A DNA stretch of 64,000 nucleotides, taken from NCBI GenBank assembly GCA_017512365.1, contig JAFWGQ010000071.1, positions 1 to 64,000 of the forward strand, in the 5' to 3' direction. Both the position numbers and the translations under genes were made by a program. Shown here piece by piece: positions 45,745 through 64,000 of the stretch. The stretch is from Mogibacterium sp. (lineage in GTDB: Bacteria; Bacillota; Clostridia; Peptostreptococcales; Anaerovoracaceae). Numbering within the stretch: the first letter of the stretch is position 1; each line of letters begins with the position of its first letter. The notes beneath the pieces were generated by a model. It saw only the letters and a list, made by a program, of their open reading frames with translations, was not told the DNA's origin and did not search any database.

Positions 45745-45784
45745 AATCGGGACAGAAATCGCAAGATATGTCCCGATTTCTTTT
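45745..45784 (+). terminator. Terminator directly upstream of the first cluster promoter
   Basis: AATCGGGACA and TGTCCCGATT pair perfectly (10 bp), followed by TTCTTTT, whose last T residues are the start of the TTGACA box. The same TTCTTTTGACAAA junction occurs at 58158-58170. Confidence 0.85.
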
Positions 45785-45811
45785 GACAAAATAGTTAGAC
45801 ACGACTAACAT
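45783..45811 (+). promoter_or_regulatory. Promoter with TetR-type operator (operon 1)
   Basis: TTGACA (45783-45788), 17-base spacer, TAACAT (45806-45811). The spacer and -10 contain the perfect palindrome GTTAG-ACACGA-CTAAC (45794-45809), so a bound repressor would block RNA polymerase. The same arrangement recurs at 58163. Confidence 0.8.
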
Positions 45812-45853
45812 ATAAAAAAGAGGAAGGATGCTTTCAAGGAGGCACTATAGACT

Positions 45854-46486
45854 ATGGGAATCATAAAGGACTACATGAATCAGACGAGGAAGCCTGAAGG
45901 GATCCTCGGGAAAATGATGATACTGGGCATGAATATGGGACATGCCGGAATGGCGAAATGGGGAACATCGTTTCTCGATGTCCGGCCACCTGAGCAGATA
46001 GTTGATCTTGGATGCGGCGGAGGCAGCAATCTTATGGCACTGGCTCTAAAGTATCCGGGGTCAACAGTTACCGGAGTTGATTATTCTCCGCTTTCCGTAA
46101 AGAAATCCAAAGAAAAAAATAAAGTGCTGATTGCTGCAGGTAAATGCAGCGTACAGCAGGGCGATGTCGCTGCGCTTACACTGGCTGACGAAACATTCGA
46201 TCTGGCAACTGCGTATGAGACAATTTACTTTTGGCCGGGCCTTGAGAAATGCTTTGCAGAAGTTGCAAGGGTACTGAAGCCGGACGGGACATTCATGATC
46301 GTCAATGAGGCGGACGGATATGATGCAGCTACAAAGAAGTATGAGGACATCATAGACGGAATGAAGGTCTATACACCGGGGCAGATCGAAGAAGCTTTGC
46401 TTACAGCCGGCTTCGAAGATGTGAAATCATATCACCATGGGAAGAAGCCGTGGATCACTGTTATTGCAAAGAAGAAAAAGCAGTAA
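45854..46486 (+). CDS. Class I SAM-dependent methyltransferase
   Basis: 210 residues, ATG after AAGGAGG. The Rossmann core: motif I VDLGCGGGSNLMALA (about 49-63), TGVDYSPLSV (motif II acid), QQGDVAALTLADETFDLATA and the post-motif VLKPDGTFMIVNE. Substrate unknown; it resembles Methyltransf_11/25 enzymes acting on small molecules. First gene behind the operator-controlled promoter; operon partners are ATC-hydrolase/methyltransferase fusions. Confidence 0.9.
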   Translation: MGIIKDYMNQTRKPEGILGKMMILGMNMGHAGMAKWGTSFLDVRPPEQIVDLGCGGGSNLMALALKYPGSTVTGVDYSPLSVKKSKEKNKVLIAAGKCSVQQGDVAALTLADETFDLATAYETIYFWPGLEKCFAEVARVLKPDGTFMIVNEADGYDAATKKYEDIIDGMKVYTPGQIEEALLTAGFEDVKSYHHGKKPWITVIAKKKKQ

Positions 46487-46498
46487 GGAGAGCTGGAA

Positions 46499-46630
46499 AT
46501 GGAACCGCGCATGAGATTTGTCTCTGAGAATAGTTATAACGATGAGATGAGGAAATACTCCGTCAGAGGAAAGATCTTTGCTGTCGTTGGCAGAAACCTC
46601 AACAACAGACTGGCTGTATTCAAATGGTAG
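46499..46630 (+). CDS. 43-residue small protein in the methyltransferase operon
   Basis: ATG 46499 lies eight bases after AAGGAG, directly behind the first methyltransferase gene. The product starts MEPRMRFVSENSYNDEMRKY, continues SVRGKIFAVVGRNLNNR and ends LAVFKW. It is basic and has no membrane helix. The next gene begins 10 bases after its stop. The clean ribosome site and packing support a real gene; the family is unknown. It could also be the surviving start of a longer gene. Confidence 0.6.
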   Translation: MEPRMRFVSENSYNDEMRKYSVRGKIFAVVGRNLNNRLAVFKW

Positions 46631-46640
46631 GAAATGGTTT

Positions 46641-47879
46641 ATGAAATACAAAGGGGTATACTGGTCACTCTTTGCGCCGATGATAAGAAACAGTATCGCT
46701 GAAAGGTACAGTAAAGAGCTGGCTGACAGATCAATAAAACGTGGAAAGAAAGAGTACAGGAAGCTGCTCGCACATGCTGATGAGCTCGGCCCGGGCAATC
46801 CTATGGCATCCAATGCGTATTTTGCCTATGTGTTCGCTGCGGCGTGGCTTGGCAGCGGCCGGGAGATGACGCCGGAAGATATGGGACAGGTGATGACGGA
46901 TGTCCTGGAAGGCCCGCTGCTTAAGAAGGTTTTTGGTATGACCGATCTCAATCGGGATCCTAAGAAGTGGTACAGGGATATGAAGAAGTACGACAGATGG
47001 TTCCGGAGACATGGAGACAGGTATCCGGTAAACTGGAACGTCAGCTTCGATGAATCCCTGCACAGCGAGGGCAGTTATTACTACTTTACGCGATGCCCAA
47101 TATGTGAATTCTGCGAGAGAGAAGGGATATCCGAACTTATGCCTGCTCTGTGTGCGACAGATGAGGTGATGTTCAGACTTCAGCATGGAAAACTGCACCG
47201 TGAGCATACTATAGCGGGCGGAGACGATATCTGTGACTACTGGGTCACAGGCGACGGTTCGTCAGGCAGTAAAGGTATGTTCTGGGACAGAGTAGCAGGA
47301 GTGTACGACATCTTCACGGATCTGATCAACGCAAAGGTCCACAGAAGACTGAAGCAGGTTGTTGCGTTGCAGATCTCATCGGATGATGAGGTGCTTGAAT
47401 GTGCCTGCGGGACTGGAATGCTGACTGAAGTTGTGGCTCCTTTGTGCAAAAGCATAACAGCGACAGACTTCTCACCAAAGATGATTAAGCAGACGGAGAA
47501 GAAGTGCCGCAGGTATTCCAATGTGACAGTCAGAAATGCGGATATACTTGCTCTCGACTTCCCGGATGAAAGATTTGATGTGGTCATCGCTGCTAACGTG
47601 ATACATCTTCTTGATGAGCCTATAAAGGCGCTCAGCGAGCTTGACAGAGTCTGCCGCAAGGGCGGTAAGCTGATAATCCCGACATATATGAACAAGGACA
47701 GCAAAGGTAAGACCAGCGGTTTTGCCAGTACGGTGGGCAAAGCCGGAGCTGACTTCAAGCGACAGTTCACATTTGGATCATATAAGGAATTCTTTGCTAA
47801 TGCCGGATATACAGATGGTGAATACACCATGATCGAGGGCAGGGTGCCATGCGCAGTGGCAGTACTCAGAAAGCAATGA
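46641..47879 (+). CDS. ATC-hydrolase-like domain fused to a SAM methyltransferase
   Basis: 412 residues from ATG 46641 (the longer in-frame TTG-type opening overlaps the small gene in another frame and is unlikely). Residues 1-205 match the L-2-amino-thiazoline-4-carboxylate hydrolase family: C152 (in CPICEFC), C171-x2-D174, R187 and C198-D199. Residues 215-412 are a class I methyltransferase with motif I VLECACGTGMLTE (251-263) and ATDFSPKM. ATC hydrolase opens a cysteine-derived thiazoline ring in Pseudomonas; whether this copy is an enzyme or a Cys-based metal or ligand site is open. Confidence 0.85.
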   Translation: MKYKGVYWSLFAPMIRNSIAERYSKELADRSIKRGKKEYRKLLAHADELGPGNPMASNAYFAYVFAAAWLGSGREMTPEDMGQVMTDVLEGPLLKKVFGMTDLNRDPKKWYRDMKKYDRWFRRHGDRYPVNWNVSFDESLHSEGSYYYFTRCPICEFCEREGISELMPALCATDEVMFRLQHGKLHREHTIAGGDDICDYWVTGDGSSGSKGMFWDRVAGVYDIFTDLINAKVHRRLKQVVALQISSDDEVLECACGTGMLTEVVAPLCKSITATDFSPKMIKQTEKKCRRYSNVTVRNADILALDFPDERFDVVIAANVIHLLDEPIKALSELDRVCRKGGKLIIPTYMNKDSKGKTSGFASTVGKAGADFKRQFTFGSYKEFFANAGYTDGEYTMIEGRVPCAVAVLRKQ

Positions 47880-47906
47880 AAAAATGGATAAAAGGAGGCT
47901 TTTCCA

Positions 47907-49526
47907 ATGTCAGTCAAATACGAGATGCTGAAATCGATCGTTAAAAAAACCGGCATAAAAAACAGTTGGAATCTCAGCGCTGATGAGATCATTGAAATAA
48001 AGAAAAAACAGAATTCCCGGGTAAATATACCTAAACTGAAGGATTCAGAAATAGATATCAGCCGCATATACATCCAGGGATGCCCGGTGATAGCAATGAA
48101 GCACCAGGAGAAAACTGATCATGCAAACATGTTCATCATAGGAGGGGGCATGGTGAGCGCTCCAAGACCGGGATCAATCAGGAAAGCACTCAGATTTGCA
48201 AAAGAGACGGGACTTGATCTGTATATCCCCTATTACCCGCTTTGTACGGTACACCCGCTGACCAAAGCATACAGTATGATCTATGACACATACTGCGAAA
48301 TGCTGAAGGATTATGATGCCGAAAACATCTCCCTTCTTGGCACATCTTCAGGAGGCAATCTGGCGCTCGGGCTTGTTCCATATATAAATGAACAGGGCAA
48401 TGAAGTCCCGATGCCAGCCCATATAATGACCATCTCTCCTGGCACATGTGCAGCGACTGATGAGGAGTGGCAGAGAATGCTTGAACTTGACAGCAAGGAT
48501 CCCGTGATCCCGGCTTCATACATGAAGACAGCGGTAGATATCATGAAGCACGGAGATGACAGCGTACCTGACTACATGATCTATCTGCAGAAGGCTGATT
48601 TCACAGGCTGCCCAAAAGTAACCTTTATATATGGTTCCGATGAAACGCTATATGCCGTTGCTCCCTCATTCGAAGCGGCGATGAAAAAATACAATGTGGA
48701 CTATGACATGATAGTTGGAGAGGGCATGTTCCACTGCTATCCGGTCTTCCCGGGTATTTGCAGAGAAGCTGAGGACGGCTGGAAGCAGATGGTGGACATC
48801 ATGAAAGCCGACAAGGACCATCCGGGATCCAGAAAGAGTGAGATCAAATCCGCTTACAGATCACTGGGCAAGGCACACAGTTTCTATGACGGCATGATGA
48901 CCGGTAGTACTGCGCTTGGCATGGCAGTAGTGAAGATGGTCTGGCAGATGGACAGGGAAGATATGCTTGAGTACCAGGCCGGAGCATTTGAGCCGATACC
49001 TGCCGGTTTCGCAGGTAGACTGCTTGAAGTACCGGTCGGCACCGGTGTGCTGTCGATGCCTGTGTGGAAGACGCTTCCGGATGCGGACATTACATGTCTT
49101 GACTATTCAGAAAAGATGATGGAGGCTGCATCTGACAGGGCGAAGGAAATGGGAATAGACAACATCTCTTTCGTTCAGGGAGATGTCGGAGCGCTTCCGT
49201 TCGAGGAGGGAAGCTTTGATGCTGTCGTATCGCTCAACGGCTTTCATGCCTTCCCGGATAAGGAAGCGGCATACAGCGAGACTTACCGCGTACTTAAACC
49301 GGGTGGTACGTTCAGTGGCTGCTTCTATGTACAGGACAGCAACAAGCATACTGACAGAATGATCAACAGATTCTATATAAGAAGCGGTTTCTTTACCCCT
49401 CCGTTTGAGACAGCAGAGAGCCTTAGACACAGACTTGAAGGCATGTATGATGATGTAGAAGTATATACAGTCAAGAGCATAGCGGTATTCAAAGCCAGAA
49501 AGAGGAAAAACCATGAAGAAATATGA
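47907..49526 (+). CDS. Alpha/beta hydrolase fused to a SAM methyltransferase
   Basis: 539 residues, ATG after AAAGGAGG. Residues 50-300: HSL/acetyl-esterase type alpha/beta hydrolase with oxyanion segment MFIIGGGMVSAP (His of HGGG replaced by Ile), nucleophile elbow GTSSGG (Ser147), an acid in YGSDETLY and His in GMFHCYPVFP. Residues 310-539: class I methyltransferase with motif I RLLEVPVGTGVLSMP (weakened: V in place of the first Gly of GxGxG) and MEAASDRAKEMG, GGTFSGCFYV. The 3' end overlaps the next gene by 14 bases. Confidence 0.88.
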   Translation: MSVKYEMLKSIVKKTGIKNSWNLSADEIIEIKKKQNSRVNIPKLKDSEIDISRIYIQGCPVIAMKHQEKTDHANMFIIGGGMVSAPRPGSIRKALRFAKETGLDLYIPYYPLCTVHPLTKAYSMIYDTYCEMLKDYDAENISLLGTSSGGNLALGLVPYINEQGNEVPMPAHIMTISPGTCAATDEEWQRMLELDSKDPVIPASYMKTAVDIMKHGDDSVPDYMIYLQKADFTGCPKVTFIYGSDETLYAVAPSFEAAMKKYNVDYDMIVGEGMFHCYPVFPGICREAEDGWKQMVDIMKADKDHPGSRKSEIKSAYRSLGKAHSFYDGMMTGSTALGMAVVKMVWQMDREDMLEYQAGAFEPIPAGFAGRLLEVPVGTGVLSMPVWKTLPDADITCLDYSEKMMEAASDRAKEMGIDNISFVQGDVGALPFEEGSFDAVVSLNGFHAFPDKEAAYSETYRVLKPGGTFSGCFYVQDSNKHTDRMINRFYIRSGFFTPPFETAESLRHRLEGMYDDVEVYTVKSIAVFKARKRKNHEEI

Positions 49527-50922
49527 TATCGAAGCGGAAAAAATACTTGGAAAGAAGAGATGGGCCAAGGAAGAACTGGACAGATCTATCCCAAAGGAGC
49601 AGAGCGATAAAATATGGAAAGCCGCTCATGACAGACTTGAAGGATATCTGGAAAAGTATGCGGACATCCCAAAAGGAGAACACGCGCATACCGACAGCAG
49701 GATATTCCCTATGGCAGCCATCTATCTGTCGATCAAAGAAGCAACTGATGAGAAGTTCGCATTTGACTTTATGGAACGGTTTTTTGCATACAGATGTGAA
49801 GGCCTTGCTAAGACACTCGCACGCCTGATGAAGGTGCCGGGAATGAAGGACCTGTTCGTAAGCATCTGGGATCCGATGACCATGAAGATGTTCGGACCTT
49901 CCAGCGGATTCAGTAACAGATTTTATGATAATCCGAAGGGCGAATACCGCATGGATGTGACATCATGCCCGTACAACAGATATCTGACAGAGCTGGGATG
50001 CCCGGAGATAACAAAATTGTTCTGCACAAATGATGACCTGATGTACGGTAATCTTCCGGGGATAGACTTCATCCGTACACAGACCATAGGAAGAGGCGGT
50101 GACTGCTGCGACTTTTACATGAGAAAGTCGCTTAAGACTGACTACAAAAACTGGATACCAAAAGGAATGATCGCGGGACTTGCTGCCGGAACAGCAGTAT
50201 TGACAGGAACTAACATCGCTGTGTGGAAGCATGTGAAGTTAAGCGACAGAAAGGCAGACATAGCAATCAAAGTGCTGCTCGGAGCAGGGCTCGCGGCATG
50301 TGCTAAGGCGACTGAATGGTCGATAATGGCATACAGGGAGTTTTCGTATAACGGAAAAAGGAATCTCTCAAGAGGAATAATCGAAGGTACGGCCGACCAT
50401 GTGAAGATCCCTGCAGGAGGTATCGGCCTTGATGTAGGCTGCGGAAGCGGTGCGCTTACCATAGCCTGTGCCAAACGCAATCCTGATGCCGAGATGGTCG
50501 GACTCGACCGCTGGGGTGCGGAATATGCTTCTTTCAGCAAGAGGCTGTGCGAGAGAAATGCGGAAGCGGAAGGCGTTACAAATATAAGCTTTTGCAAAGG
50601 CGATGCAGTGAAGCTCGATTACCCTGACGAGTGCTTCGATGCCGTGACAAGCAACTATGTGTATCACAACATAGCCGGCGTCAATAAGCAGGATCTTTTG
50701 AGAGAAACGCTGCGTGTCCTGAAGAAGGGCGGAACATTCGCGATACATGACATAATGTCTAAGGCAAGGTATGGAGATATGGAAAAGTTCGTGGATGAAC
50801 TCAGAAACCAGGGGTATGAAGAAGTGAACCTCATCCATACAGATAACGGGCTTTTCATGTCAAAATCTGAGGCGAGACGTATGATGCTGACAGGCTCTGC
50901 GCTTCTTGTCGGTAGAAAGTAA
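49513..50922 (+). CDS. ATC-hydrolase-like domain, two membrane helices and SAM methyltransferase in one chain
   Basis: 469 residues. Residues 1-205 are an ATC-hydrolase-like domain with C152 (SCPYNRY), C171, D174 or D175, R188 and C198-C199-D200. Two hydrophobic segments follow at about 217-237 and 252-272. A methyltransferase domain (290-469) has motif I IGLDVGCGSGALTIA (304-318), VGLDRWG and a GGTFAIHDI post-motif. Both enzymatic domains would face the same side of the membrane. Last gene before the tetR promoter region. Confidence 0.85.
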   Translation: MKKYDIEAEKILGKKRWAKEELDRSIPKEQSDKIWKAAHDRLEGYLEKYADIPKGEHAHTDSRIFPMAAIYLSIKEATDEKFAFDFMERFFAYRCEGLAKTLARLMKVPGMKDLFVSIWDPMTMKMFGPSSGFSNRFYDNPKGEYRMDVTSCPYNRYLTELGCPEITKLFCTNDDLMYGNLPGIDFIRTQTIGRGGDCCDFYMRKSLKTDYKNWIPKGMIAGLAAGTAVLTGTNIAVWKHVKLSDRKADIAIKVLLGAGLAACAKATEWSIMAYREFSYNGKRNLSRGIIEGTADHVKIPAGGIGLDVGCGSGALTIACAKRNPDAEMVGLDRWGAEYASFSKRLCERNAEAEGVTNISFCKGDAVKLDYPDECFDAVTSNYVYHNIAGVNKQDLLRETLRVLKKGGTFAIHDIMSKARYGDMEKFVDELRNQGYEEVNLIHTDNGLFMSKSEARRMMLTGSALLVGRK

Positions 50923-50944
50923 TAACATTGAAACTCATGATAAA

Positions 50945-51025
50945 GTTAAAATTAACTAACTCCTATCTTGACAATAGGAAATTGATGTGTTAGCATGGCA
51001 ACGAAAAGAGTTAGTTATAGCTAAC
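50945..51025 (+). promoter_or_regulatory. tetR promoter flanked by two operator palindromes
   Basis: TTGACA (50968-50973), 17-base spacer, TAGCAT (50991-50996). Upstream palindrome GTTAA-AATTAA-CTAAC (50945-50960, one mismatch) and downstream palindrome GTTAG-TTATAG-CTAAC (51010-51025) share the arms and 6-base spacing of the other cluster operators. CCTAT/ATAGG arms also flank the -35. Autoregulation by the TetR protein is the likely meaning. A leader of about 110 nt follows. Confidence 0.75.
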
Positions 51026-51113
51026 TATACCATAATACTTTCATCCCTCTTACAATATCTACATCTACAGCTAAAAGTCGCCGATTCCGGCGTCTTTTGG
51101 TGCAATAACAGAC

Positions 51114-51749
51114 ATGCCGAGAGATAAAACATTCAGCCATGAAAAGATCATACGCGCCGCGACCGAAGAGTTTGCGGAATATGGGTATGACAAGGCTTCG
51201 ATGCGCCGTATCGGCAAAAGATGCGGACTTACAGCGGCTGCTCTGTATCGGCATTTTGACAGCAAAGAGGCAATGTATGATGCGCTGGTAAGCCCTGCGC
51301 TTGAGGATCTGAAAGAATGGGTCAGTGAACATGTAAGTAAATCAGAGGAGGCGATCAGAGCCTGCACAGAGATCCCCGACAGCAGAGAAACAGAGCTGAT
51401 ATGGAATTCCACTGAGATAGATATGATGAGGGATCTCATATATCCGCGCATGGAAGAGTATGCAATGCTGGTCAACAAGTCCTATGGATCCAGATACGAG
51501 AATTTCCTTAACGATTTTGTTGAAGATCAGATGAAAAGGATGATACCACAGCTTAAGGAACTGAAAAAGCTGGGGCTTGATGTCAAGGATATCTCGGAAG
51601 AGGAACTCCATATCGTGACCACAGCATATTGTACGGCGCTGTTTGAGCCGGTGGTGCGCAACTATTCACTTGAAGAAGCAGTGAGCTATCTGGATACGGT
51701 CGAGGCATTCTTCATGCCGGGCTGGAAAAACCTGCTGGGGTTCGCTTAA
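51114..51749 (+). CDS. TetR/AcrR-family regulator
   Basis: 211 residues. The N-terminal helix-turn-helix is standard: IIRAATEEFAEYGYDKASMR, then IGKRCGLTAAALYRHFDSKE (residues 12-52). The C-terminal ligand domain is helical and divergent, with CTEIPDSRETELIW and a single Cys in TTAYCTALFEP. It most likely binds GTTAG-N6-CTAAC sites at 45794, 50945, 51010 and 58174. The ribosome site is weak. The downstream ABC operon follows 128 bases later. Confidence 0.93.
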   Translation: MPRDKTFSHEKIIRAATEEFAEYGYDKASMRRIGKRCGLTAAALYRHFDSKEAMYDALVSPALEDLKEWVSEHVSKSEEAIRACTEIPDSRETELIWNSTEIDMMRDLIYPRMEEYAMLVNKSYGSRYENFLNDFVEDQMKRMIPQLKELKKLGLDVKDISEEELHIVTTAYCTALFEPVVRNYSLEEAVSYLDTVEAFFMPGWKNLLGFA

Positions 51750-51792
51750 GGCAAAGCACCTCCTTTTTAAAAACAAATACATGCACGTCGAT

Positions 51793-55429: not shown

Positions 55430-55557
55430 GTTAACCGGTGTTAACATAGGCTGAACGGGTGGACTAAGAAGCCTGCGAGTGGTATTTTTAAGGGGTAATA
55501 AAGAAATGCCTGTCCTCGGAAGGGGACGGGCTTTCGGTTTATTAAGGGTAAGTTAAC
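55430..55557 (+). promoter_or_regulatory. Intergenic control region before the DUF6110/P-type ATPase operon
   Basis: It holds GTTAAC-CGGT-GTTAAC (55430-55445), a terminator-like hairpin GCCTGTCCTC/GGGGACGGGC followed by TTT (55508-55534) and another GTTAAC (55552-55557). The hairpin and the GTTAAC after it mirror 51793-51847, suggesting a duplicated regulatory module. No clear -35/-10 pair was found. Confidence 0.5.
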
Positions 55558-55602: not shown

Positions 55603-55680
55603 ATGAAGCACAAATACTGGGCATGGGCAACCGTATTCTGCATGTTCATGACAATGATGACAGGCAAAAAGAAAGCTTAA
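55603..55680 (+). CDS. 25-residue membrane peptide
   Basis: ATG 55603 is eight bases after AAGGAG. The product begins MKHKYWAWATVFCMFMTMMT and ends GKKKA: a hydrophobic, Met/aromatic-rich stretch with basic ends, fit to span or lie on the membrane. It is followed 35 bases later by the DUF6110 gene with its own AGGAGG. Its constant neighbours are metal-transport genes. Family not assigned. Confidence 0.65.
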   Translation: MKHKYWAWATVFCMFMTMMTGKKKA

Positions 55681-55715: not shown

Positions 55716-56030
55716 ATGAGTATTTTTACATGGAAACACGCAGGGCTTTTCTTAGGCGGAATGCTGTTCCAGGCAAAGGGAATCGATCTTCTTGCAAGCG
55801 AAAAAGCACATGATCTGTATGTAAAAACGACAGCTCTTGGTCTTCGCTGCAGAGATGAGGTAATGAAGAATGTCACTTCAGTCAGAGAAGGCTGCGAGGA
55901 CATATATGCGGAGGCGACACAGCTAAATGAGGAAAGAGCCAACGCGCCCGAGGTCGAGACCGTAGTGATAGAAGACAAGAGCAAGGCTAAGAAGGCTGCA
56001 AAGAAGACCGAAAAGAAATCTGATAAATAA
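55716..56030 (+). CDS. DUF6110 family protein
   Basis: 104 residues. N-terminal hydrophobic segment with two Gly motifs (WKHAGLFLGGMLFQAKGIDLLAS split as HAGLFLGGMLFQ), then ASEKAHDLYVKTTALGLRCRDE with one Cys, and a Lys/Glu-rich C-terminus (KKAAKKTEKKSDK). DUF6110 proteins typically neighbour heavy-metal P-type ATPases, as here (15 bases upstream of one). The layout recalls proteins that dock on a transporter's membrane part; function unproven. Confidence 0.85.
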   Translation: MSIFTWKHAGLFLGGMLFQAKGIDLLASEKAHDLYVKTTALGLRCRDEVMKNVTSVREGCEDIYAEATQLNEERANAPEVETVVIEDKSKAKKAAKKTEKKSDK

Positions 56031-56045: not shown

Positions 56046-58124
56046 ATGAGATTTATAGTCCGTGCAGAATCGCGCGGCAGATTGAGGGTGCATGCAGATA
56101 TCGACAGGATGAGCCTGGCTGAGGCAGATGTCCTGGAATACTACATGAAATATATTCCCGGCGTAAAACATGTCAAGGTATATGACCGCACATGTGATGC
56201 GGTGATACTTTATGACTGCGACAGAGATGATGTCACGGAGGCTCTGGCGCGCTTTTCATTCGATGATGAAGCAGCGCGGGCGCTGGTTCCTGAACACACA
56301 AGCAGGGTATCTGACCGCGAGTTTGAGAACAGGCTTTTGAACAGGACCATATTCAGGTATGCGCGCAAGCTCCTGCTGCCGCATCCTCTTATGGTATTCT
56401 GGGACGCTAACAAAGCGTGCGGATATCTGAAGGAAGGTCTGAAGGCGCTTCTTGATGGCAATCTCACAGTTGCTGTTCTTGATGCTGCGGCTATTACTAC
56501 ATCCTTCGCAAGGGGCGATCACGAGACATCTTCATCGGTCATGTTCCTGCTGCAAATAGGAGATCTGCTTGAGGAATGGGCTCACAAGAAGTCCGTCGAG
56601 GATCTTGCCGGGCTTATGTCACTCAACGTGGACAAGGCCTGGGTAGTCAGGGGCGGCGCAGAGGAGCTGGTGTCTGTAGGCGACATCGCTGCAGGAGATC
56701 ACGTTGTCGTAAGGATGGGCAATATGATCCCGCTTGACGGTAAGGTGATATCCGGTACAGCCATGGTGAACCAGCAGACTATGACAGGCGAATCGATGCC
56801 TGTAAAGAAGTCTGCGGGCAGTTATGTCTACGGCGGAACTGTGATCGAGGAGGGAGAGTGCATCTTCGTTGTCGACAAGGCTGCGGGAAGCGGCAGATAC
56901 GATCGCATAGTCAGGATGATCGAGGAGTCCGAGAAACTCAAGTCAGTGAGTGAATCGAAGGCGGCCGACCTTGCCGACAGGCTCGTTCCGTATAGTCTGG
57001 CGGGCACGCTTATAGCTTACGCTCTTACCCGCAACGTTCAGACCGCAATGGCATTCCTGATGGTGGATTATTCCTGCGCTCTCAAGCTTTCTATGCCGCT
57101 TGCTGTGCTTTCTGCCATGAGAGAAAGCGGAAGGCACCGTATAACCGTCAAGGGAGGCAAGTTCCTTGAGATCGTTGCTGAAGCAGATACCATCGTTTTC
57201 GACAAGACAGGGACACTTACCAATGCGACTCCTTCGGTCGTAGACGTGATACCATTCGGTGGCAATGACGCCAGCGAGATGCTCAGAATAGCGGCATGTC
57301 TTGAAGAGCATTATCCGCACTCGATAGCAAATGCAGTTGTCGAGGCGGCCAGGGTCCGGGGACTTGAGCACGATGAGATGCACAGCGAGGTGGAATACGT
57401 TGTTGCACACGGTATTACAAGCTCGATAGACGGACAGAAGGCATCCATAGGAAGCTATCACTACATATTTGAAGACGAGGGCTGCAGGGTGCCGGAAGGA
57501 GAAGAAGAAAAGTTCGAACAGCTGCCTGCGGAGTATTCACTGCTTTATCTTTCGGTATCCGGCAGACTTGCGGCGGTCATCTGCATCGAGGACCCGGTAA
57601 GAGAAGATGCGCCTGAGGTCATTGAAGAACTGAGGAACAGGGGTTTCAGCCGAATAGTCATGATGACGGGCGACAGCGAGAAGACTGCGGCCTATGTCGC
57701 GTCAAAGACAGGAGTCGATGAATACATATCCGAGGTCCTGCCGGAAGACAAGGCAGGATTCGTGCGAAGCGTAAAGTACGACGGGCACAGAGTGGTGATG
57801 ATAGGAGACGGCATCAATGACTCTCCGGCGCTTTCGGAGTCCGATGCAGGTATAGCTGTCAACACCGGCGCAGCTATAGCCAGAGAGATCGCGGATATAA
57901 CCATTGAGGCAGAGAATTTAGGAGAACTGCTTGTGCTCAGAGAAATATCCGAAGCTCTGATGCGCAGGATAGACGGGGATTACAGAGCGATCATAACGCT
58001 CAACTCGATGCTGATCATGTTGGGAGCCTTCGGCATCATAACGCCGGCAACATCTGCACTGCTGCACAATCTATCTACCATAGGCATCAGCCTGTATAAC
58101 ATGACAGACCTGATAAAAGCATAG
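56046..58124 (+). CDS. Heavy-metal P1B-type ATPase with SCA in place of CPC
   Basis: 692 residues, ATG after GGAGG. Residues 1-75 are an HMA-like ferredoxin fold without the CxxC pair (GRLRVHADIDRMS). The A domain has MTGESMPV. The metal-site helix reads VDYSCALKLSMPLAV with C344, so CPC is replaced by SCA and Pro is lost at that point. The phosphorylation site is FDKTGTLTN (D386), then HPHSIANAVVEAA-like HYPHSIA, MTGDSEKTA and GDGINDSPAL. It should export or load a transition metal; the altered motif blocks a Cu/Zn assignment. Confidence 0.92.
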   Translation: MRFIVRAESRGRLRVHADIDRMSLAEADVLEYYMKYIPGVKHVKVYDRTCDAVILYDCDRDDVTEALARFSFDDEAARALVPEHTSRVSDREFENRLLNRTIFRYARKLLLPHPLMVFWDANKACGYLKEGLKALLDGNLTVAVLDAAAITTSFARGDHETSSSVMFLLQIGDLLEEWAHKKSVEDLAGLMSLNVDKAWVVRGGAEELVSVGDIAAGDHVVVRMGNMIPLDGKVISGTAMVNQQTMTGESMPVKKSAGSYVYGGTVIEEGECIFVVDKAAGSGRYDRIVRMIEESEKLKSVSESKAADLADRLVPYSLAGTLIAYALTRNVQTAMAFLMVDYSCALKLSMPLAVLSAMRESGRHRITVKGGKFLEIVAEADTIVFDKTGTLTNATPSVVDVIPFGGNDASEMLRIAACLEEHYPHSIANAVVEAARVRGLEHDEMHSEVEYVVAHGITSSIDGQKASIGSYHYIFEDEGCRVPEGEEEKFEQLPAEYSLLYLSVSGRLAAVICIEDPVREDAPEVIEELRNRGFSRIVMMTGDSEKTAAYVASKTGVDEYISEVLPEDKAGFVRSVKYDGHRVVMIGDGINDSPALSESDAGIAVNTGAAIAREIADITIEAENLGELLVLREISEALMRRIDGDYRAIITLNSMLIMLGAFGIITPATSALLHNLSTIGISLYNMTDLIKA

Positions 58125-58130
58125 CTACAG

Positions 58131-58159
58131 ACGACTGTTGAAATATACAGTCGTTTTTT
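58131..58159 (+). terminator. Terminator after the P-type ATPase gene
   Basis: ACGACTGT and ACAGTCGT pair around 8 bases, then TTTTTT. It is followed at once by CTTTTGACA of the next promoter. Confidence 0.85.
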
Positions 58160-58162
58160 CTT

Positions 58163-58191
58163 TTGACAAAGGAATTAGAGAAGACTAACAT
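58163..58191 (+). promoter_or_regulatory. Promoter with TetR-type operator (operon with HMA protein)
   Basis: TTGACA (58163-58168), 17-base spacer, TAACAT (58186-58191), containing ATTAG-AGAAGA-CTAAC (58174-58189), the same palindrome arms and position as at 45794-45809. Any start codon must lie after about 58198. Confidence 0.8.
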
Positions 58192-58231
58192 ATATGCAAA
58201 AGAAGCAAGTAAGATAAGGGAGATAAAAAAC

Positions 58232-58609
58232 TTGGATAAACTGATAATCATAATAGGGATACTGCTGATCGCTTATGCAGTATACGGTACTGTTCAGAAG
58301 GCGAGAGGAAAGGCTAAGTCGAGCTGCTGCGGCAGTGCGGAGTCTGTATTGCCAAGGAAGGTAGAAGATACGGATGAGTCTCATTATCCGTTTAAATATC
58401 ACATATCGATCGATGGCATGAAGTGCAGCAACTGCGCAGCAAGCGTTGAGAATGCTATCAATGCATCAGGCGACACATGGGCACATGTCAATCTGGGACG
58501 GAATAGAGCGGAGGTACTTTCTAAAACAGAGAAGACAGAAGAGGATTTCGCAAAGACGCTCAAAGGAACGAGCTATAAAGTGACAGCCTGCGAGCAGATA
58601 GAGAAATAA
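58232..58609 (+). CDS. Membrane-anchored HMA-domain (metal-binding) protein
   Basis: 125 residues from TTG 58232, nine bases after AAGGGAG. A longer in-frame version would start inside the -35 box and is excluded. Membrane helix at residues 3-22, then SSCCGS, then an HMA fold with the metal-binding loop SIDGMKCSNCAASVENAI (GMxCxxC). It should bind soft metals (Cu, Zn or Cd) and hand them to a transporter such as the adjacent P-type ATPase. First gene of the operon with a methyltransferase, ZIP and hydrolase genes. Confidence 0.85.
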   Translation: MDKLIIIIGILLIAYAVYGTVQKARGKAKSSCCGSAESVLPRKVEDTDESHYPFKYHISIDGMKCSNCAASVENAINASGDTWAHVNLGRNRAEVLSKTEKTEEDFAKTLKGTSYKVTACEQIEK

Positions 58610-58627
58610 GCTTAGAGAAGGAATATC

Positions 58628-59461
58628 ATGGAAAGATACCATATCGAAAAGAACTCTGTGCAGGAGACGCTGATGATACCTCTCATCGGCCGCAAGGTCT
58701 GTTCAGATCATTACCCTCATCTGTTCGCCGACCCTGAGGCAGACAGGATACTCGGTATGCTGGACTATGACCTTGCACCGAAGCTCAAAAAGATGGAAAC
58801 ACCGGCAGGATTGTTCGGAGCACTCGAGGTGGCACAGAGACAGTACGACCTCGCATGGGAAGTGAAGGACTATCTGAAGGATCACCCTGATGCCGCGGTA
58901 GTCAACATGGGCTGCGGGCTGGATGATACATTCAGTAAGTGCGACAACGGCACATGCAAAGGCTACAATATTGACATGCCTGATGTCATAGAGACCAGGA
59001 ATATACTCCTGCCTGCAGGAGAGAGGGAGACCAATATCTCATGCGATCTCAATGACTATGCGTGGATGGACCTCATTGATACAAGCGGCGGCGCAGTATT
59101 CTTCGCTTCAGGAGTTTTCTATTACTTCCATACTGAAGACGTGAAGAAGCTGTTTACTGAGATGTCGCGCAGGTTCCCTGGAGGAGTGCTCGTCTTTGAC
59201 TGCTGCAACAGCCGCGGTGCAAAGATGATGACAAAGACATGGCTCAAGGAGGCCGGCATCAGCGATGTGAATGCATATTTCTCTCTTGAGAACGCATGGG
59301 AGATAAAAGGCTGGCAGGGTAATTTCGCAGACATCACATCAAGAAGCTACATGAGAGGCTACCGGGACATCTATGACGATGTCAGCAGATTCCACAAGCT
59401 CATGATAAAGTTCTGCGACAGGATGGTAAAAATGGTGATCATCAGGATCGGATTCAGATAA
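58628..59461 (+). CDS. TcmP/leucine-carboxyl-methyltransferase-like SAM methyltransferase
   Basis: 277 residues, ATG after AGAAGGAATATC. Features: an N-terminal helix TLMIPLIGRKVCSDHYP, motif I VVNMGCGLDDTFSKC (a GxGxxxT form typical of LCM/TcmP O-methyltransferases) and acidic YNIDMPDVIETR with the characteristic P-D. GGAVFFASGVFYYF follows. It probably O-methylates a carboxyl or hydroxyl. Two bases separate it from the ZIP gene. Confidence 0.88.
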   Translation: MERYHIEKNSVQETLMIPLIGRKVCSDHYPHLFADPEADRILGMLDYDLAPKLKKMETPAGLFGALEVAQRQYDLAWEVKDYLKDHPDAAVVNMGCGLDDTFSKCDNGTCKGYNIDMPDVIETRNILLPAGERETNISCDLNDYAWMDLIDTSGGAVFFASGVFYYFHTEDVKKLFTEMSRRFPGGVLVFDCCNSRGAKMMTKTWLKEAGISDVNAYFSLENAWEIKGWQGNFADITSRSYMRGYRDIYDDVSRFHKLMIKFCDRMVKMVIIRIGFR

Positions 59462-59463
59462 TT

Positions 59464-60249
59464 ATGTTTTCCAGAGAAGTGATTACGGGACTGTTGATCC
59501 CGTTTGTCGGGACTTCAGCGGGAGGCGCATGCGTCTTCTTCATGAAGAGAGAACTGAATATCGGCATCCAGAAGGCACTGACCGGATTTGCCGCCGGCGT
59601 GATGGTGGCTGCGTCAGTTTGGAGTCTCATTATTCCTGCAATCGAGCAGTCTGACAGTATGGGGAGACTTTCATTCCTTCCGGCTTTCATTGGATTCTGG
59701 CTGGGAATTCTGTTCCTGCTGATACTGGACAACATAACGCCGCATCTGCATCTCAATTCCGATAAGACAGAAGGCCCTTCAAGTCATCTGGCAAGGACTA
59801 CTATGATGGTGCTTGCTGTGGTGCTTCACAACATACCTGAAGGCATGGCTGTCGGAGTCGTATATGCCGGATATATATCCGGTTCTGCAGACATAACAGC
59901 AGGCGGAGCGCTGGCTCTGTCTTTGGGAATAGCCATTCAGAACTTTCCTGAAGGCGCCATAATATCCATGCCGCTTTATGCCGCAGGCAGGAGCAAGTTA
60001 AGAGCTTTCGCAGACGGAGTGCTGTCCGGAGCAGTCGAACCTGTCGCGGGATTTCTGACTATACTTGCAGCATCGCTGATAGTCCCGGCGATGCCGTATC
60101 TTTTAAGTTTTGCCGCAGGAGCGATGATATACGTAGTAGTCGAAGAGCTGATACCTGAAATGGCAGAGGGCGAGCATTCGCATATCGGAGTGCTGCTCTT
60201 TGCAGCAGGCTTCACGGTTATGATGGCTCTTGATGTAGCGCTCGGATAG
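59464..60249 (+). CDS. ZIP family metal transporter
   Basis: 261 residues, eight membrane helices. The two metal-site helices read LHNIPEGMAVGV (helix 4) and IQNFPEGAIISMPL (helix 5, Gln in place of the first His, as in GufA-type ZIPs). VVEELIPEMAEGEHSHIG near the C-terminus is also typical. It imports or equilibrates Zn2+ or Fe2+. Start ATG overlaps the spacer after the methyltransferase stop, so coupling is likely. A gene for an ATC-hydrolase protein follows 13 bases later. Confidence 0.94.
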   Translation: MFSREVITGLLIPFVGTSAGGACVFFMKRELNIGIQKALTGFAAGVMVAASVWSLIIPAIEQSDSMGRLSFLPAFIGFWLGILFLLILDNITPHLHLNSDKTEGPSSHLARTTMMVLAVVLHNIPEGMAVGVVYAGYISGSADITAGGALALSLGIAIQNFPEGAIISMPLYAAGRSKLRAFADGVLSGAVEPVAGFLTILAASLIVPAMPYLLSFAAGAMIYVVVEELIPEMAEGEHSHIGVLLFAAGFTVMMALDVALG

Positions 60250-60262
60250 GAGGAAAAAACTC

Positions 60263-60925
60263 ATGAAATACGTGGGTATGCCAATGGGTATGTGGCTTCT
60301 GTACTCAAAATCGTTCAGGGATCATCTCGTTTTTGTCTTTGACTATGACCTGAAAACAGCGGATGAAGTGACCGCAAAAGCAAAGTGGAAGTACAGGAGC
60401 ATAATCGAAAGCCTTCCTGAATTCGAAAAAGAAGACCGCTTCAAGATGAACATAGTCAACTGCGCGCTTGTGTCGGCATTCATCCTAAACATGCCTGAGC
60501 GTCCTTCTGTAGAAAAGCTCACTGAATTCTATGCGAAGGCCATGATGAACGAGCTGACAAAGAAGTTCTTTGCTTTAGCGGGCAAGAACAAGTTCTCAGC
60601 CGAGGATCTTAAGGGAATGAGGCAGACTGCAGATCTTGATGCAGCTGACCGGAACCCTTATTCATGGAACATGGATCTTCTTGAGTATAAGGAGGGCAGC
60701 GGATACGAGGCAAGGTTCACGAAGTGCGGAATCTGCACGCTTATGAATGAACTCGGCCTGTATGATCTTGTGCCTGCGATGTGCAGCTTCGACTATACGA
60801 TGGCTGAGGCTGCGGGCACATATGATTTCGTAAGAGAATACACTCTGGCATCCGGCGGCCCGTACTGCGACTGCGGATATAAACGGAAAAGCCATCCTCG
60901 CAGGGAGGAAAAGAATTATGTATGA
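60263..60925 (+). CDS. Stand-alone L-2-amino-thiazoline-4-carboxylate hydrolase family protein
   Basis: 220 residues, ATG after AGGAGGAAAAAAC. The family motif set is complete: C155/C158 (KCGIC), C174-x2-D177, R191 and C202-D203. The end is basic (KRKSHPRREEKNYV). It aligns in motif spacing with the domains fused to the methyltransferases at 46641 and 49513. Known family members hydrolyse a cysteine-derived thiazoline; here the metal-rich context allows a metal-binding role for the four Cys. Confidence 0.85.
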   Translation: MKYVGMPMGMWLLYSKSFRDHLVFVFDYDLKTADEVTAKAKWKYRSIIESLPEFEKEDRFKMNIVNCALVSAFILNMPERPSVEKLTEFYAKAMMNELTKKFFALAGKNKFSAEDLKGMRQTADLDAADRNPYSWNMDLLEYKEGSGYEARFTKCGICTLMNELGLYDLVPAMCSFDYTMAEAAGTYDFVREYTLASGGPYCDCGYKRKSHPRREEKNYV

Positions 60926-60953
60926 AATATGTGGGGATTTACTGAGGTGAAAT

Positions 60954-63032
60954 ATGCAGTTTGTTGAAATGGGGAATGAAAATGGAAAGACGCTGATGCT
61001 TCTGCCCGGGACTTGCTGCGACTATCAGACAAACTTCGCCAATGTACTGGGCAGGCTGGCAGATAAGTATCACCTGATATGCGTCAATTATGATGGCTTC
61101 GACGGCAGCGATGCGATATTTCCGGATATGATCACTGTCACAGAGAAGATAGAGCGGTACATTAAAGATAATCACAACGGCAGTCTGGACGGAGCACTCG
61201 GATCTTCTCTGGGCAGCAGCTTTGTAGGACAGCTGATCCAGAGAAGGAACATCCATCTGGATCACGGTATCTTCGGAAGTCCGGATCTTGATCAGAGCGG
61301 CAGACTGAGCGCGAAGCTCCAGGCAAAGCTTGTAGTACCGCTGCTGACAAGCTTCACTGGAAGTGAGAAGAAAAGGGAAAAGACCAGACAGAAGCTGAAG
61401 GATTTCTTCCTTATGAGCGATGAGGCGGCAGGCAGGTTCATGGAATGCTTCGCGAAGTTCGATCCGGAGTCGATTAAGAATGAGTATTACACCGACCTTC
61501 TCACATGGCTTGACGAAGACATACATGTGGATGGGACTAAAGTACATTTCATATATGCCAACAAGATGGGAGAGAAGTATCTTAAGCGCTATAAGAAGTA
61601 TTTCCGTGATCCGGATATACGCGAGTTCGACATGCAGCATGAGCAATGGCTCTTCGGCGGTGATGAATATGCCGAGCCTGTTCTTAAAGCGATCGATGAA
61701 TTCATGAATGATGAGACAGGCAGCAATGTATACGAAGCATATGATTTGAAGACAGTAAGGAATAAGGGGAAGATATACAGGAAGGCGCTTGAAGCTGCAG
61801 GTATCGGCGATGTGGATAATAAGGTCGTTGCATACGAGAAGCGCCTGAGAGAAATGTATTGCTCAGAAAACTTCAGAAAGCATAATGTCTATCCGACCAC
61901 AGACGCAGTGCACATTTACTCTGTCATAGCCATGTGCCTCGAACTAAAGGAGATGGGACTGACGGATGCGCAGATAATAGATGCTGTCAATAAAGGCTTC
62001 AGTGTACGAAGGAATCTCTTCGGGGGGCTCATAAAGTGTATCGACTGTCTTCCATTCGCATACAGGATAGCCTGGAAATGGAACATCTCAGATCATGACA
62101 AGAGAGTAAAAGACGGCAGTATCACGTATGATGTCTTTGATGTCAGTCCTGACAGGATAGAGTACAGCATATCGAAATGCGTATATGTCGAGATGTTCGA
62201 GACTTACGGGATCCGTAGTTTGTGCAAGATATTCTGCATGACTGATACTACTGCCTATGAGAATCTTTCGAAACATGTAAAATTCATAAGGCACTCCGAT
62301 CTGTCAGACGGAGACTGCTGCCATGATGAAGTGGCAGACCGCAGAACGCTGTATCCGAAAAAGTATGAAAAAAAGATGTGCGAATGGCTGAAAATCAGGT
62401 ACGGCAATCAGCAGACAGAGCTGATATGGGATAAGACCATGGCGAAATACAGAGACTATCTGAAAGAGTCGCCTGATTACGGCGGCACGAAAAACGGACA
62501 TGCCATGTCGATATACGGTAGTATGCTGGTGTTTGCGATGATCGAGTCTCTGCCGGATCAGCCGCAGATGGACGAGCTGCAGAGGTTCACACAGGATCTT
62601 TTCATGGAGCCTTTTGTAAAGCTCGGAAAGATATTCGATCTTGATCGTGCCAGAGATATAGCATTGATAGACAAGGTGTTCCGCAAAGTGGCTAAGCGCG
62701 ATAATAAGGACAGCACCAAATGGCCGTGCGGATTTCATACTGTTTACGATGGCTTTGATAAGGCAAAGGGAACAACAAGTTATCACTTCAATCAGTGCCC
62801 TGTGGCGGAGTTTGCGAAAAAGCATGACCTTCTGCATTATTTGCCACTAATGTGCAACTGTGACTTCTACGGGATAGAACAGATACACGGACAGCTGATA
62901 AGAGAGGGCACCTGCGGCAATTCAGACAGATGCGATTATCTGATCGCAGGAAGAAACAACCAGATCGTTTCCGCATATGAAACACTAACTGATGATAAAG
63001 GATTTCTGGTAAGCAGAAAAAAGGACTCATGA
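60954..63032 (+). CDS. Alpha/beta hydrolase with two ATC-hydrolase-like domains
   Basis: 692 residues. Residues 1-255: alpha/beta hydrolase with nucleophile elbow GSSLG (Ser85) and LLPGTCCD in the oxyanion position; the predicted His is in MQHEQWLFGG. Residues 260-470: ATC-like domain 1 with C409, C424, C428-x2-D431, R446 and CCHD (455-458), a divergent end. Residues 470-692: domain 2 with C615, C634-x2-D637, R650 and C660-D661, the canonical form. Internal duplication of this family is unusual. Its stop overlaps the next ATG by 4 bases. Confidence 0.85.
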   Translation: MQFVEMGNENGKTLMLLPGTCCDYQTNFANVLGRLADKYHLICVNYDGFDGSDAIFPDMITVTEKIERYIKDNHNGSLDGALGSSLGSSFVGQLIQRRNIHLDHGIFGSPDLDQSGRLSAKLQAKLVVPLLTSFTGSEKKREKTRQKLKDFFLMSDEAAGRFMECFAKFDPESIKNEYYTDLLTWLDEDIHVDGTKVHFIYANKMGEKYLKRYKKYFRDPDIREFDMQHEQWLFGGDEYAEPVLKAIDEFMNDETGSNVYEAYDLKTVRNKGKIYRKALEAAGIGDVDNKVVAYEKRLREMYCSENFRKHNVYPTTDAVHIYSVIAMCLELKEMGLTDAQIIDAVNKGFSVRRNLFGGLIKCIDCLPFAYRIAWKWNISDHDKRVKDGSITYDVFDVSPDRIEYSISKCVYVEMFETYGIRSLCKIFCMTDTTAYENLSKHVKFIRHSDLSDGDCCHDEVADRRTLYPKKYEKKMCEWLKIRYGNQQTELIWDKTMAKYRDYLKESPDYGGTKNGHAMSIYGSMLVFAMIESLPDQPQMDELQRFTQDLFMEPFVKLGKIFDLDRARDIALIDKVFRKVAKRDNKDSTKWPCGFHTVYDGFDKAKGTTSYHFNQCPVAEFAKKHDLLHYLPLMCNCDFYGIEQIHGQLIREGTCGNSDRCDYLIAGRNNQIVSAYETLTDDKGFLVSRKKDS

Positions 63033-63790
63033 CCATACACGAATTTGGAAAAGAGAATAAATATGTGATCGTGATGTTCCATCCGCTTGGCGTGTGGTGG
63101 GATGTTTTCGAATATGTGATCCCCGAACTGTCCGAATGTTTCCATCTGATAATACCGGCAATACCGGGAATGGATCCGGATGTGCCGCTGAGAGACTTTT
63201 CAAGTATTGAGGACCTAGCGGAAGAGATGGAGGACTGGCTTCATGCGAATGGTCACGATCATGTCTGCTGCCTCTATGGCTGCTCGATGGGAGGCGCTCT
63301 TGTTATGCGGATGCTTGCTGATGGGAAGATAACAGCTGATAATGCGGTCATAGACGGAGGCATCACACCATACCAACTGCCGAAGCCCGTGACATATCTG
63401 ATCGGAATGAAGGACTTTATGATGACCATGGCCGGCAGATACATGAGTGTAAAGGCACTCTCGAGTGTGTTCGATCCTGACAAGTATTCTGAGGAGGACA
63501 TTGTCTACATAAAAAAAGTGCTGGGCAGCATGAGCGCCCGCACTGTATGGAGGGGATTCTATTCGACAAATAATTACAGTATGCCTTCACAGCCTGTAAG
63601 GACTGATGCTCATGTCGAATACTGGTACGGCGAAGACGAAAGAAAAGCGCGCGATTGGGACATCGAATATGTCAGAAGGATGTTCCCGGGGACTGTATTC
63701 AAAGAAAACAAAGGGCAGGATCATGCTGAGTTCTTCACGCTGCATCCGGCAGAGTTCTGCAAAAGCCTGAAGACAGTGATTGAAAGGTGA
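63029..63790 (+). CDS. Alpha/beta hydrolase
   Basis: 253 residues, ATGA overlap with the preceding gene. Fold features: VIVMFHPLGVWWDVFEYV (oxyanion HPLG), LYGCSMGGALVMR with Ser86, and a His in GQDHAEFFTLHP near residue 232. It is a soluble hydrolase or thioesterase-like enzyme. Its sequence type (W-W-D-V, G-C-S-M-G-G) is close to the N-terminal domain of the preceding fusion gene in layout. Substrate unknown. Confidence 0.88.
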   Translation: MTIHEFGKENKYVIVMFHPLGVWWDVFEYVIPELSECFHLIIPAIPGMDPDVPLRDFSSIEDLAEEMEDWLHANGHDHVCCLYGCSMGGALVMRMLADGKITADNAVIDGGITPYQLPKPVTYLIGMKDFMMTMAGRYMSVKALSSVFDPDKYSEEDIVYIKKVLGSMSARTVWRGFYSTNNYSMPSQPVRTDAHVEYWYGEDERKARDWDIEYVRRMFPGTVFKENKGQDHAEFFTLHPAEFCKSLKTVIER

Positions 63791-63797
63791 AACTGCA

Positions 63798-64000
63798 ATG
63801 TTGTTAACTGTATTCCTGGCAATTGTAATATGTGCAGCGGTAACAATGATGCTGCTTGCAGCAGTAGCATTCATACAGAAGAAAGAATTCTTTTCGTCTG
63901 CCCCTAAGGAAGCGCAGGAAGCAATACTTCCGAGAGAGCAGGAGTTGTTTTACGGCGCAAGAGCAATTGGATGGACGCTAATGGTATTTAGTCTCCTGAT
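63798..64000 (+). CDS. Membrane protein, 3' end cut by window edge
   Basis: ATG 63798 behind GAAAGGTGAAAC, seven bases after the hydrolase stop; open to the window end (67 full codons). It starts MLLTVFLAIVICAAVTMMLL with one membrane helix (1-26), a polar loop (QKKEFFSSAPKEAQEAILP) and the start of a second helix (GWTLMVFSLL). No family recognised. It continues the cluster operon. Confidence 0.7.
   Translation, partial: MLLTVFLAIVICAAVTMMLLAAVAFIQKKEFFSSAPKEAQEAILPREQELFYGARAIGWTLMVFSLL

Follow-up and report, generated by a model that had tools for sequence, protein, structure and literature searches.

The right-hand part of a 64,000-nucleotide stretch of a Mogibacterium sp. genome (assembly GCA_017512365.1, contig JAFWGQ010000071.1, positions 1 to 64,000; hereafter, the window) carries a gene cluster in which class I S-adenosylmethionine (SAM) methyltransferase domains (MT1 to MT4), ATC-hydrolase-family proteins, alpha/beta hydrolases (ABHa to ABHc), and an LCM/TcmP-like methyltransferase (LCM) stand next to a pair of ATP-binding cassette (ABC) half-transporters (ABC1 and ABC2) and metal genes (ZIP, HMA, DUF6110, and a P1B-type ATPase), and we read it, with a probability of roughly 0.4, as a horizontally acquired, metal-responsive module by which the cell would take up a metal-binding small molecule and process it internally. 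The gene content of the cluster, its recurrence in other genomes, the enrichment of metal genes around it, and the operator sequence shared by its parts were all computed. The predicted set is not private to the window and, judging from its homologues, recurs in many rumen and gut bacteria, while the cluster itself looks like a metal-responsive island for uptake or processing, and there is a fair chance that it is more than that.

Recurrence was gauged by scanning a species-genome collection with an MT4 alignment, which returned at least 594 matching stretches, at least 396 of them encoding relatives; the best 80 loci were kept, and an MT4 gene was callable in 79 of these (the caller keeps profile matches first). 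The titles of these loci name Lachnospiraceae, Oscillospiraceae, Ruminococcus flavefaciens, Butyrivibrio, Flavonifractor, Eubacterium brachy, and Pyramidobacter, and many refer to the ruminant gut. Within the same-strand run holding MT4, the 79 loci also had MT1 (27 loci), an ATC protein (22), the membrane protein TMX (19), LCM (17), ABC2 (15), DUF6796 and P1B (13 each), MT3, DUF6110, and HMA (12 each), ABHa, ZIP, and TMX3 (11 each), ABC1 (10), and DtxR and ABHc (nine each), and, when the 79 loci are taken as a whole, 57 held one or more other enzymes of the set. TMX, TMX2, and TMX3 are small membrane proteins, and none of their scanned representatives had a Pfam match. Gene order differs between the loci, the same families appearing reshuffled (e.g., MT1-MT4-HMA-x-DUF6110-P1B-x-TetR-ABC1-ABC2 in the Flavonifractor locus L230). 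The methyltransferase domains formed four main clades, one per window domain, of 74, 26, 11, and nine tips (the window domain being counted twice in each), and families are joined within one reading frame in several ways (ATC with MT2, ABHa with MT3, and ATC with MT4 in the window; ABHa, MT1, MT2, ApbA, MT3, or HMA with MT4 in relatives), which is as would be expected for enzymes catalyzing steps of one pathway.

Two other members of the set were searched for on their own: the ATC-family protein encoded from 60263 had relatives in four of the 390 other genomes of the class, with all four loci carrying other parts of the set (its relatives, 56–71% identical, come from loci titled Mogibacterium, Lachnospiraceae, Oscillospiraceae, and others), and LCM was found at nine other places in eight of the 390. 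LCM alone was rejected as a marker of the system, as, besides L234, five of the eight loci (L239 and L241–L244) had no other cluster enzyme. The grouping of these genes is not a product of chance, because relatives of every enzyme family share the same setting elsewhere. An open-access literature search for the cluster, DUF6110, and ATC hydrolases returned no description of such a cluster.

A metal gene (ZIP, DUF6110, P1B, HMA, DtxR, FeoB, or DUF3793) is present in 38 of the 79 MT4 loci, a metal gene together with a further enzyme in 29, and both within one run in 17. When loci were tested against their own genomes, ZIP turned up in 13 of 50 with 0.81 expected (P about 5e-12; this expectation, built on 135 ZIP pieces, uses an upper bound on the genes) and DUF6110 in 11 of 50 with 0.20 expected (P about 4e-16); the sample comprised 50 of the 80 loci, mostly the longer ones, with L188 (a ZIP-bearing locus) and L175 (a DUF6110-bearing one) falling outside it. 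Approached from the DUF6110 side, the family of the window's host has this gene in 32 genomes, and 24 regions besides the window were examined (20 plus G067, G005, G050, and G098; the G067 contig spans only 3.2 kb, and the remaining matches are known as pieces of about 3 kb). Enzymes or ZIP accompany DUF6110 in only two of these 24, namely, G067 (LCM, metallo-beta-lactamase, DUF6110, and P1B) and G005 (DUF6110, P1B, ABC1, ABC2, and ZIP), and DUF6110-P1B was therefore dropped as an obligate part of the set. A second sample, covering 20 of the 35 DUF6110 matches in MT4-bearing genomes, showed ZIP in nine regions and clear set enzymes in eight (L227 would make a ninth, but scores just 41 bits); three of these eight lie on contigs already counted, which leaves L214, L221, L225, L229, and L230, i.e., five of 17. 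Because enzymes occur near it in only part of the DUF6110 regions, the predicted DUF6110-P1B pump is an independent, general one that has been joined to the enzyme set in some genomes.

An earlier first-pass annotation had proposed that the enzymes are coupled to metal transport, and, when the control sequences of the two halves were compared, the same promoter/operator was found ahead of both. The putative operator, GTTAG-N6-CTAAC, is new in this analysis and stands at three window promoters, i.e., those of the methyltransferase operon, tetR, and HMA-LCM-ZIP; the sequences from 45779 and 58159 are alike in 31 of 36 bases, spanning a promoter-like TTGACA-17-TAACAT with TTAG-N6-CTAAC. The pattern TTGACA-N(3-8)-TTAG-N(4-8)-CTAACAT occurs at two places in the whole 2.46 Mb genome, namely, these two promoters, and the reversed control at none; in the window, the leftmost 39 kb hold no operator copy, and no exact copy precedes DUF6110. 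Across 116 stretches totaling 1.82 Mb (the 80 MT4 loci, L214–L245, the window, L099, L100, and L112), RTTAG-N6-CTAAY was counted 226 times, with 212 copies being intergenic, as compared to 1–23 copies, 0–4 of them intergenic, for each of eight rearranged control palindromes; three of the stretches, on contigs present twice (L216, L219, and L231), were kept in this count and dropped from the leader-gene counts below. Six other stretches from relatives had two copies in 117 kb.

At least one operator was present in 67 of the 80 MT4 loci. It preceded 30 of 79 metal leader genes (P about 9e-9) and 42 of 126 cluster-enzyme leaders (P about 4e-9), as compared to 59 of 549 unlabelled ones, with the ABC-pair leaders (9/31, P 0.006) and the TetR leaders (7/31, P = 0.07 against unlabelled genes) following. 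Broken down by leader family, the proportions were 9/12 for DtxR/MntR, 9/15 for DUF3793, 10/18 for ABC1, 4/8 for ZIP, 16/36 for MT4, 7/18 each for LCM and DUF6110, 1/10 for HMA, 0/6 for P1B, and 0/9 for TMX. Eleven sequences, the window included, have the operator ahead of both a metal gene and an enzyme gene, and, with one operator thus preceding both, the two halves probably share a metal-responsive switch. The enzymes seem, moreover, to have been added to a pre-existing metal regulon, given that the operator also precedes DUF6110 in seven of 20 family regions that lack the enzyme set. The other sites in the window's own genome lie about 35 bases ahead of a second ZIP-HMA pair (L250 503-2139, with the C-terminal 90 residues of a P1B ATPase encoded next), ahead of an ABC-FtsX pair, which has two, and at three places that are less clear. 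One operator copy lies about 55 bases ahead of a 504-residue protein that, by eye, looks like IMP dehydrogenase (L252 4595), which may be chance, and another lies near a 101-residue frame that, likewise by eye, resembles the start of a Fur-family protein (L196 9171).

As to the protein reading this operator, a repressor of the DtxR/MntR type is more likely than TetR, the latter being favored as a local regulator of the ABC unit. The idea that everything stands “under one TetR regulator” was not supported: the operator precedes tetR and two other units in the window, with no exact copy ahead of DUF6110, and elsewhere it marks far fewer TetR than DtxR/MntR leaders (the 7/31 and 9/12 given above). 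The DtxR-family protein of locus L163 has both Fe_dep_repress and Fe_dep_repr_C and comes nearest to MntR models, albeit below their cut-offs, and a DtxR match was present in 47 of 51 genomes, the window's own included. The terminator-like stems and promoter-like sites dividing the cluster (Table 1) suggest about four transcription units (MT1-MT4; tetR-ABC-ABC; DUF6110-P1B; HMA-LCM-ZIP-ATC-hydrolases-TMX), and these sites, together with the rarity of the operator at TetR leaders, speak against one operon under TetR. Terminator-like sites number 24 as compared to 14.3 in shuffles, and promoter-like sites 26 as compared to 23.4; the latter are no commoner than in shuffled sequence and, therefore, weigh little alone.

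In the module as we picture it, the YbtPQ/IrtAB-like ABC pair would move the compound (some relatives also have a Trep_Strep/MptD-type energy-coupling factor (ECF) importer); the alpha/beta hydrolases, ATC proteins, MT1 to MT4, and LCM would open, hydrolyze, and methyl-cap the ligand, whereby its metal would be released; ZIP and HMA would import and carry metal ions; the DUF6110-P1B6 pump would expel any surplus; and a DtxR/MntR-family repressor on GTTAG-N6-CTAAC would most likely switch both halves, while TetR would act on the ABC unit. What we infer is which way transport runs, what the substrate and the reactions are, which metal is handled (with iron or manganese favored), and which protein is the repressor. 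Among half-size chains in the PDB, both ABC halves are matched best by YbtPQ (296 and 263 bits), and nine MT4 runs contain one unlabelled family whose members in L114, L167, and L177 match Trep_Strep, the last of these runs having Trep_Strep with CbiQ, a double ATPase, and an ABC pair behind LCM-MT4-ABHc-MT1-TetR; taken together, the YbtPQ likeness and the Trep_Strep/CbiQ genes make the system resemble an import one. That a ligand is imported and then processed is a better fit than its synthesis from scratch, because no scaffold-making enzyme is seen among the scanned cluster genes. We would also tentatively suggest, as a claim in its own right, that this is a widespread, undescribed pathway for acquiring or releasing metal in anaerobic gut Firmicutes that methyl-caps a hydrophobic metal ligand, its components being four methyltransferase subfamilies, LCM, multiplied ATC proteins, hydrolases, small membrane proteins, and a DtxR/MntR-type switch with ZIP, HMA, and P1B6. 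Methyl-capping of a metal ligand is chemistry that we know from no siderophore system. Were this so, the recurring, operator-linked set of rumen and gut anaerobes would provide a candidate regulon and a testable repressor–operator pair, an enzyme list with which to seek a new metal ligand, and a physiological setting for the ATC-hydrolase family, which has so far been named after one reaction.

Quite a few results weigh against the uptake-and-processing module. The margin of YbtPQ over exporters such as MsbA and Sav1866, at 12–17 bits, is small, which makes export possible. The coupling of enzymes and metal genes put forward by the first-pass annotation is supported by synteny elsewhere and by the enrichment of ZIP and DUF6110, though metal genes are absent from the stretch covered in 41 of 79 MT4 loci (many contigs being short), and 22 of 24 other family DUF6110 regions are devoid of set enzymes and ZIP; the link of LCM to the set is looser than that of the 60263 protein, its more distant relatives being mostly outside such clusters. 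The 116 stretches were picked for holding parts of the set, and the operator count is thus no genome-wide test; in the window's own genome, the bare operator pattern occurs at nine places and its reversed control at four, and single sites, therefore, prove little. None of the eight FeoB leaders has an operator under the 300-base rule, four of the 51 genomes have no DtxR match, and the DtxR gene of the window's own genome has no operator within 1.5 kb on either side.

Among the alternatives, a biosynthetic role is possible, if doubtful: the enzymes would make or tailor a new metallophore without a nonribosomal peptide synthetase (NRPS), to be exported or re-imported by the ABC pair. Many types of tailoring enzyme (methyltransferases and LCM, and, in relatives, ketopantoate-reductase-like ApbA, GNAT, PEMT, and a family 28 glycosyltransferase) do lie in operons with the metal-gene operator, and exporters are likewise close matches of both ABC halves, but the Pfam-scanned window genes and the scanned representatives (a part of the relatives' genes) include no NRPS, polyketide synthase (PKS), scaffold enzyme, or amide-forming enzyme. 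It is unlikely that the cluster detoxifies plant, fungal, or microbial toxins, chelators included, by hydrolysis, methylation, acetylation, and glycosylation with efflux pumps exporting the products, for neither an operator common to metal uptake and efflux genes nor the ZIP enrichment would be expected then, even though enzymes of these classes modify drugs and xenobiotics, ABC pairs are at hand along with TetR, the relative L139 has MatE, the ATC and hydrolase paralogues are expanded, and the island is mobile.

Rather improbable is the handling of a tetrapyrrole, i.e., a haem, porphyrin, or chlorophyll derivative on whose propionate or ester groups LCM, the methyltransferases, and the hydrolases would act. 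It could draw on the ATC-hydrolase annotation of tolI in the cluster for the tetrapyrrole tolyporphin (PMC8401325, as far as its available text goes), on an ECF-type transporter that scavenges haem in Staphylococcus lugdunensis (PMC7299338, likewise in the part available), on the many ruminant-gut records, and on the finding that 66 of 71 standalone MT4 genes encode at least one hydrophobic segment ahead of the MT4 domain (the pre-domain linker of the window's MT4 is borderline, its hydrophobicity of 1.53 falling just short of the threshold of 1.6); against this, no haem-synthesis or haem-opening gene is seen among the scanned cluster genes, and the collection of metagenome-assembled genomes is biased in its hosts. 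Stacking of unrelated cargo on a mobile island, for which one might cite the location at the tmRNA gene, the patchy spread (4/390 for the 60263 protein), and the DUF6110 regions lacking enzymes or ZIP (22/24), is already disfavored and highly improbable in view of the enrichment, the shared operator, and the recurrent fused frames.

Table 1. Annotated features of the cluster and its surroundings
Feature	Position	Strand	Basis and remarks
Transfer-messenger RNA (tmRNA) gene	39257..39611		Last 26 bases (39586..39611, +) are a probable attachment site
Inverted repeat, 10-base arms	45745..45778		Ahead of first unit
Promoter-like site	45783..45811	+	Contains operator GTTAGACACGACTAAC at 45794-45809
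MT1, class I SAM methyltransferase	45854..46486	+	Pfam; subfamily kept across loci
ATC_hydrolase + MT2 fusion	46641..47879	+	Pfam; longest frame begins 46578
ABHa (alpha/beta hydrolase, Abhydrolase_3) + MT3 fusion	47907..49526	+	Pfam, motif GTSSG
ATC_hydrolase + MT4 fusion	49513..50922	+	Pfam
Promoter-like site	50968-50996		Ahead of tetR
Operator GTTAGTTATAGCTAAC	51010..51025	+	Just downstream of promoter-like site 50968-50996
TetR regulator	51114..51749	+	Pfam
ABC half-transporter 1	51877..53676	+	Pfam; top half-size PDB match is yersiniabactin importer chain A (presumably YbtP)
ABC half-transporter 2	53677..55425	+	Pfam; top half-size PDB match is YbtQ
Terminator-like stem, end of TetR-ABC unit	55508..55531	+	
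DUF6110 (PacL/DUF1490 relative)	55716..56030	+	Pfam; PMC9374683 (available part)
P1B-type ATPase, P1B6-like	56046..58124	+	Pfam; no CPC, SCA at 343, HN at 674
Terminator-like stem, P1B/HMA junction	58129..58156	+	
Second promoter-like/operator copy	58163..58191	+	Operator ATTAGAGAAGACTAAC at 58174-58189
HMA protein, one hydrophobic segment, CC motif	58232..58609	+	Pfam; longest frame begins 58163
LCM/TcmP-like methyltransferase	58628..59461	+	Pfam
ZIP metal transporter, ZupT-like	59464..60249	+	Pfam; under ZupT model cut-off
ATC_hydrolase-family protein	60263..60925	+	Pfam
ABHb alpha/beta hydrolase + two ATC_hydrolase domains, 692 residues	60954..63032	+	Pfam (ATC stretches), BLASTP (ABHb)
ABHc alpha/beta hydrolase	63029..63790	+	Pfam
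TMX membrane protein, 16th gene, cluster end	63780..64000, continues to contig 64304	+	Overlaps ABHc gene
Tyrosine integrase	68177-69325		
Imperfect copy of tmRNA 3' end	contig 75544-75569		21/26 bases alike (5 differences)

Pfam, applied with its curated cut-offs, bore out the domain list of the first-pass annotation, including its five ATC-hydrolase-like stretches in four proteins, with the sole exception of the ABHb region: the first 250 residues of the 692-residue protein have no Pfam match, aligning instead to the downstream hydrolase by BLASTP (E=7e-6) and containing GSSLG. It was also right in placing the genes on a single strand (all 15 lie on the plus strand), whereas its tight spacing applies to most junctions (gaps of 0–28 bases or overlaps) and not to those before 46641 (154 bases), 51114, 51877 (127 bases), 55716, and 58232. 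The homologue in L163 suggests that the real start of the ATC-MT2 gene is the ATG at 46641, and TTG 58232 is the more likely start of the HMA gene, since 58163-58191 constitutes a promoter-like site. Motifs appear intact (the SAM loops, GxSxG in three hydrolases, DKTGT, Walker A, and LSGGE); LCM has NMGCGLD, and, in TMX, residues D, D, PE, and N do not vary across 18 sequences. PDB profile searches with the ATC family and TMX gave no convincing match. A 25-codon frame for a small hydrophobic peptide was noticed by eye between the ABC pair and DUF6110 (55603-55680).

An island of about 36 kb, seated at the tmRNA gene (ssrA), probably carries the cluster as cargo, because the 3' end of that gene is repeated beyond the tyrosine integrase, i.e., both an integrase and a repeated tmRNA end, as befits an integrative island at ssrA, are in place. 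Left of 39257, the genes that were scanned belong to the ordinary chromosomal complement (UPF0182, an RnfC-like protein, and nicotinate phosphoribosyltransferase). The island also carries ParA/ParB (40847-42704), a SpaA/thioester-domain surface protein (43123-45321), and, at its right end (contig 69480-75244), three matches to PADLOC candidate defence families (PDC-S01, PDC-M13B, and PDC-S49), as well as a transposase recognized by eye on the opposite strand (L008 10994-12139). Plasmid and phage collections contained no match to MT4 and one partial match each to the 692-residue protein. A Roseburia plasmid encodes a relative of the ABHb hydrolase (L112 18001-18771) and has an operator copy 21 bases ahead of a TetR gene adjoining a methyltransferase gene (L112 32478).

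Set beside known systems, the cluster combines familiar parts in a setting of its own. Of the importers YbtPQ (yersiniabactin) and IrtAB (mycobactin), the former provides the best half-size PDB matches of both ABC halves, but the window cluster is without siderophore synthesis genes, and the margin over exporters is small; likewise, no scaffold synthetase of NRPS or NRPS-independent siderophore (NIS) systems is found among the Pfam-scanned cluster genes. According to the available part of PMC9374683, DUF6110 is a relative of DUF1490/PacL and typically neighbors P1B6 pumps, and, by the features given there, the window's ATPase qualifies as a P1B6 pump with DUF6110 (a DUF6110 neighbor, HN, and no CPC). 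DUF6110 lies directly ahead of its pump, as in the DUF1490-P1B platforms of the PacL-CtpC kind, although methyltransferases, ATC-family proteins, ZIP, and hydrolases go unmentioned as companions of the pair in that same part of PMC9374683. The operator ahead of DtxR/MntR leader genes (9/12) is reminiscent of the DtxR/IdeR and MntR regulons. The half-site and the 16-base palindrome presumably resemble DtxR and MntR boxes; the spacing and the enzyme genes controlled belong, to our knowledge, to no DtxR/IdeR or MntR regulon. LCM reaches 31.6 bits with PF04072 (cut-off of 22.3), the family of TcmP, but stays far under TIGR00027 (26.9 of 93.55 bits) and sits among metal genes rather than in a polyketide cluster. 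The ATC proteins, finally, score 79.5–92.9 bits each with PF14196 (cut-off of 28.1), and two Cys, one Asp, and one Arg are invariant in 31 sequences, with a third Cys nearly so. Those outside the 60263 group are 9–24% identical to the 60263 protein, and two more in the window's own genome (L009 1398-9187 and L010 5819-6511) are 14% identical to it, the neighbors of the former resembling, by eye, HypB pairs, a thioredoxin-reductase-like protein, an iron ABC permease, and a NifH-like ATPase. For the predicted proteins of this cluster, “ATC hydrolase” is a family name only, and they differ from the namesake in being fused to methyltransferases or to a hydrolase and in occurring as several paralogues per cluster.

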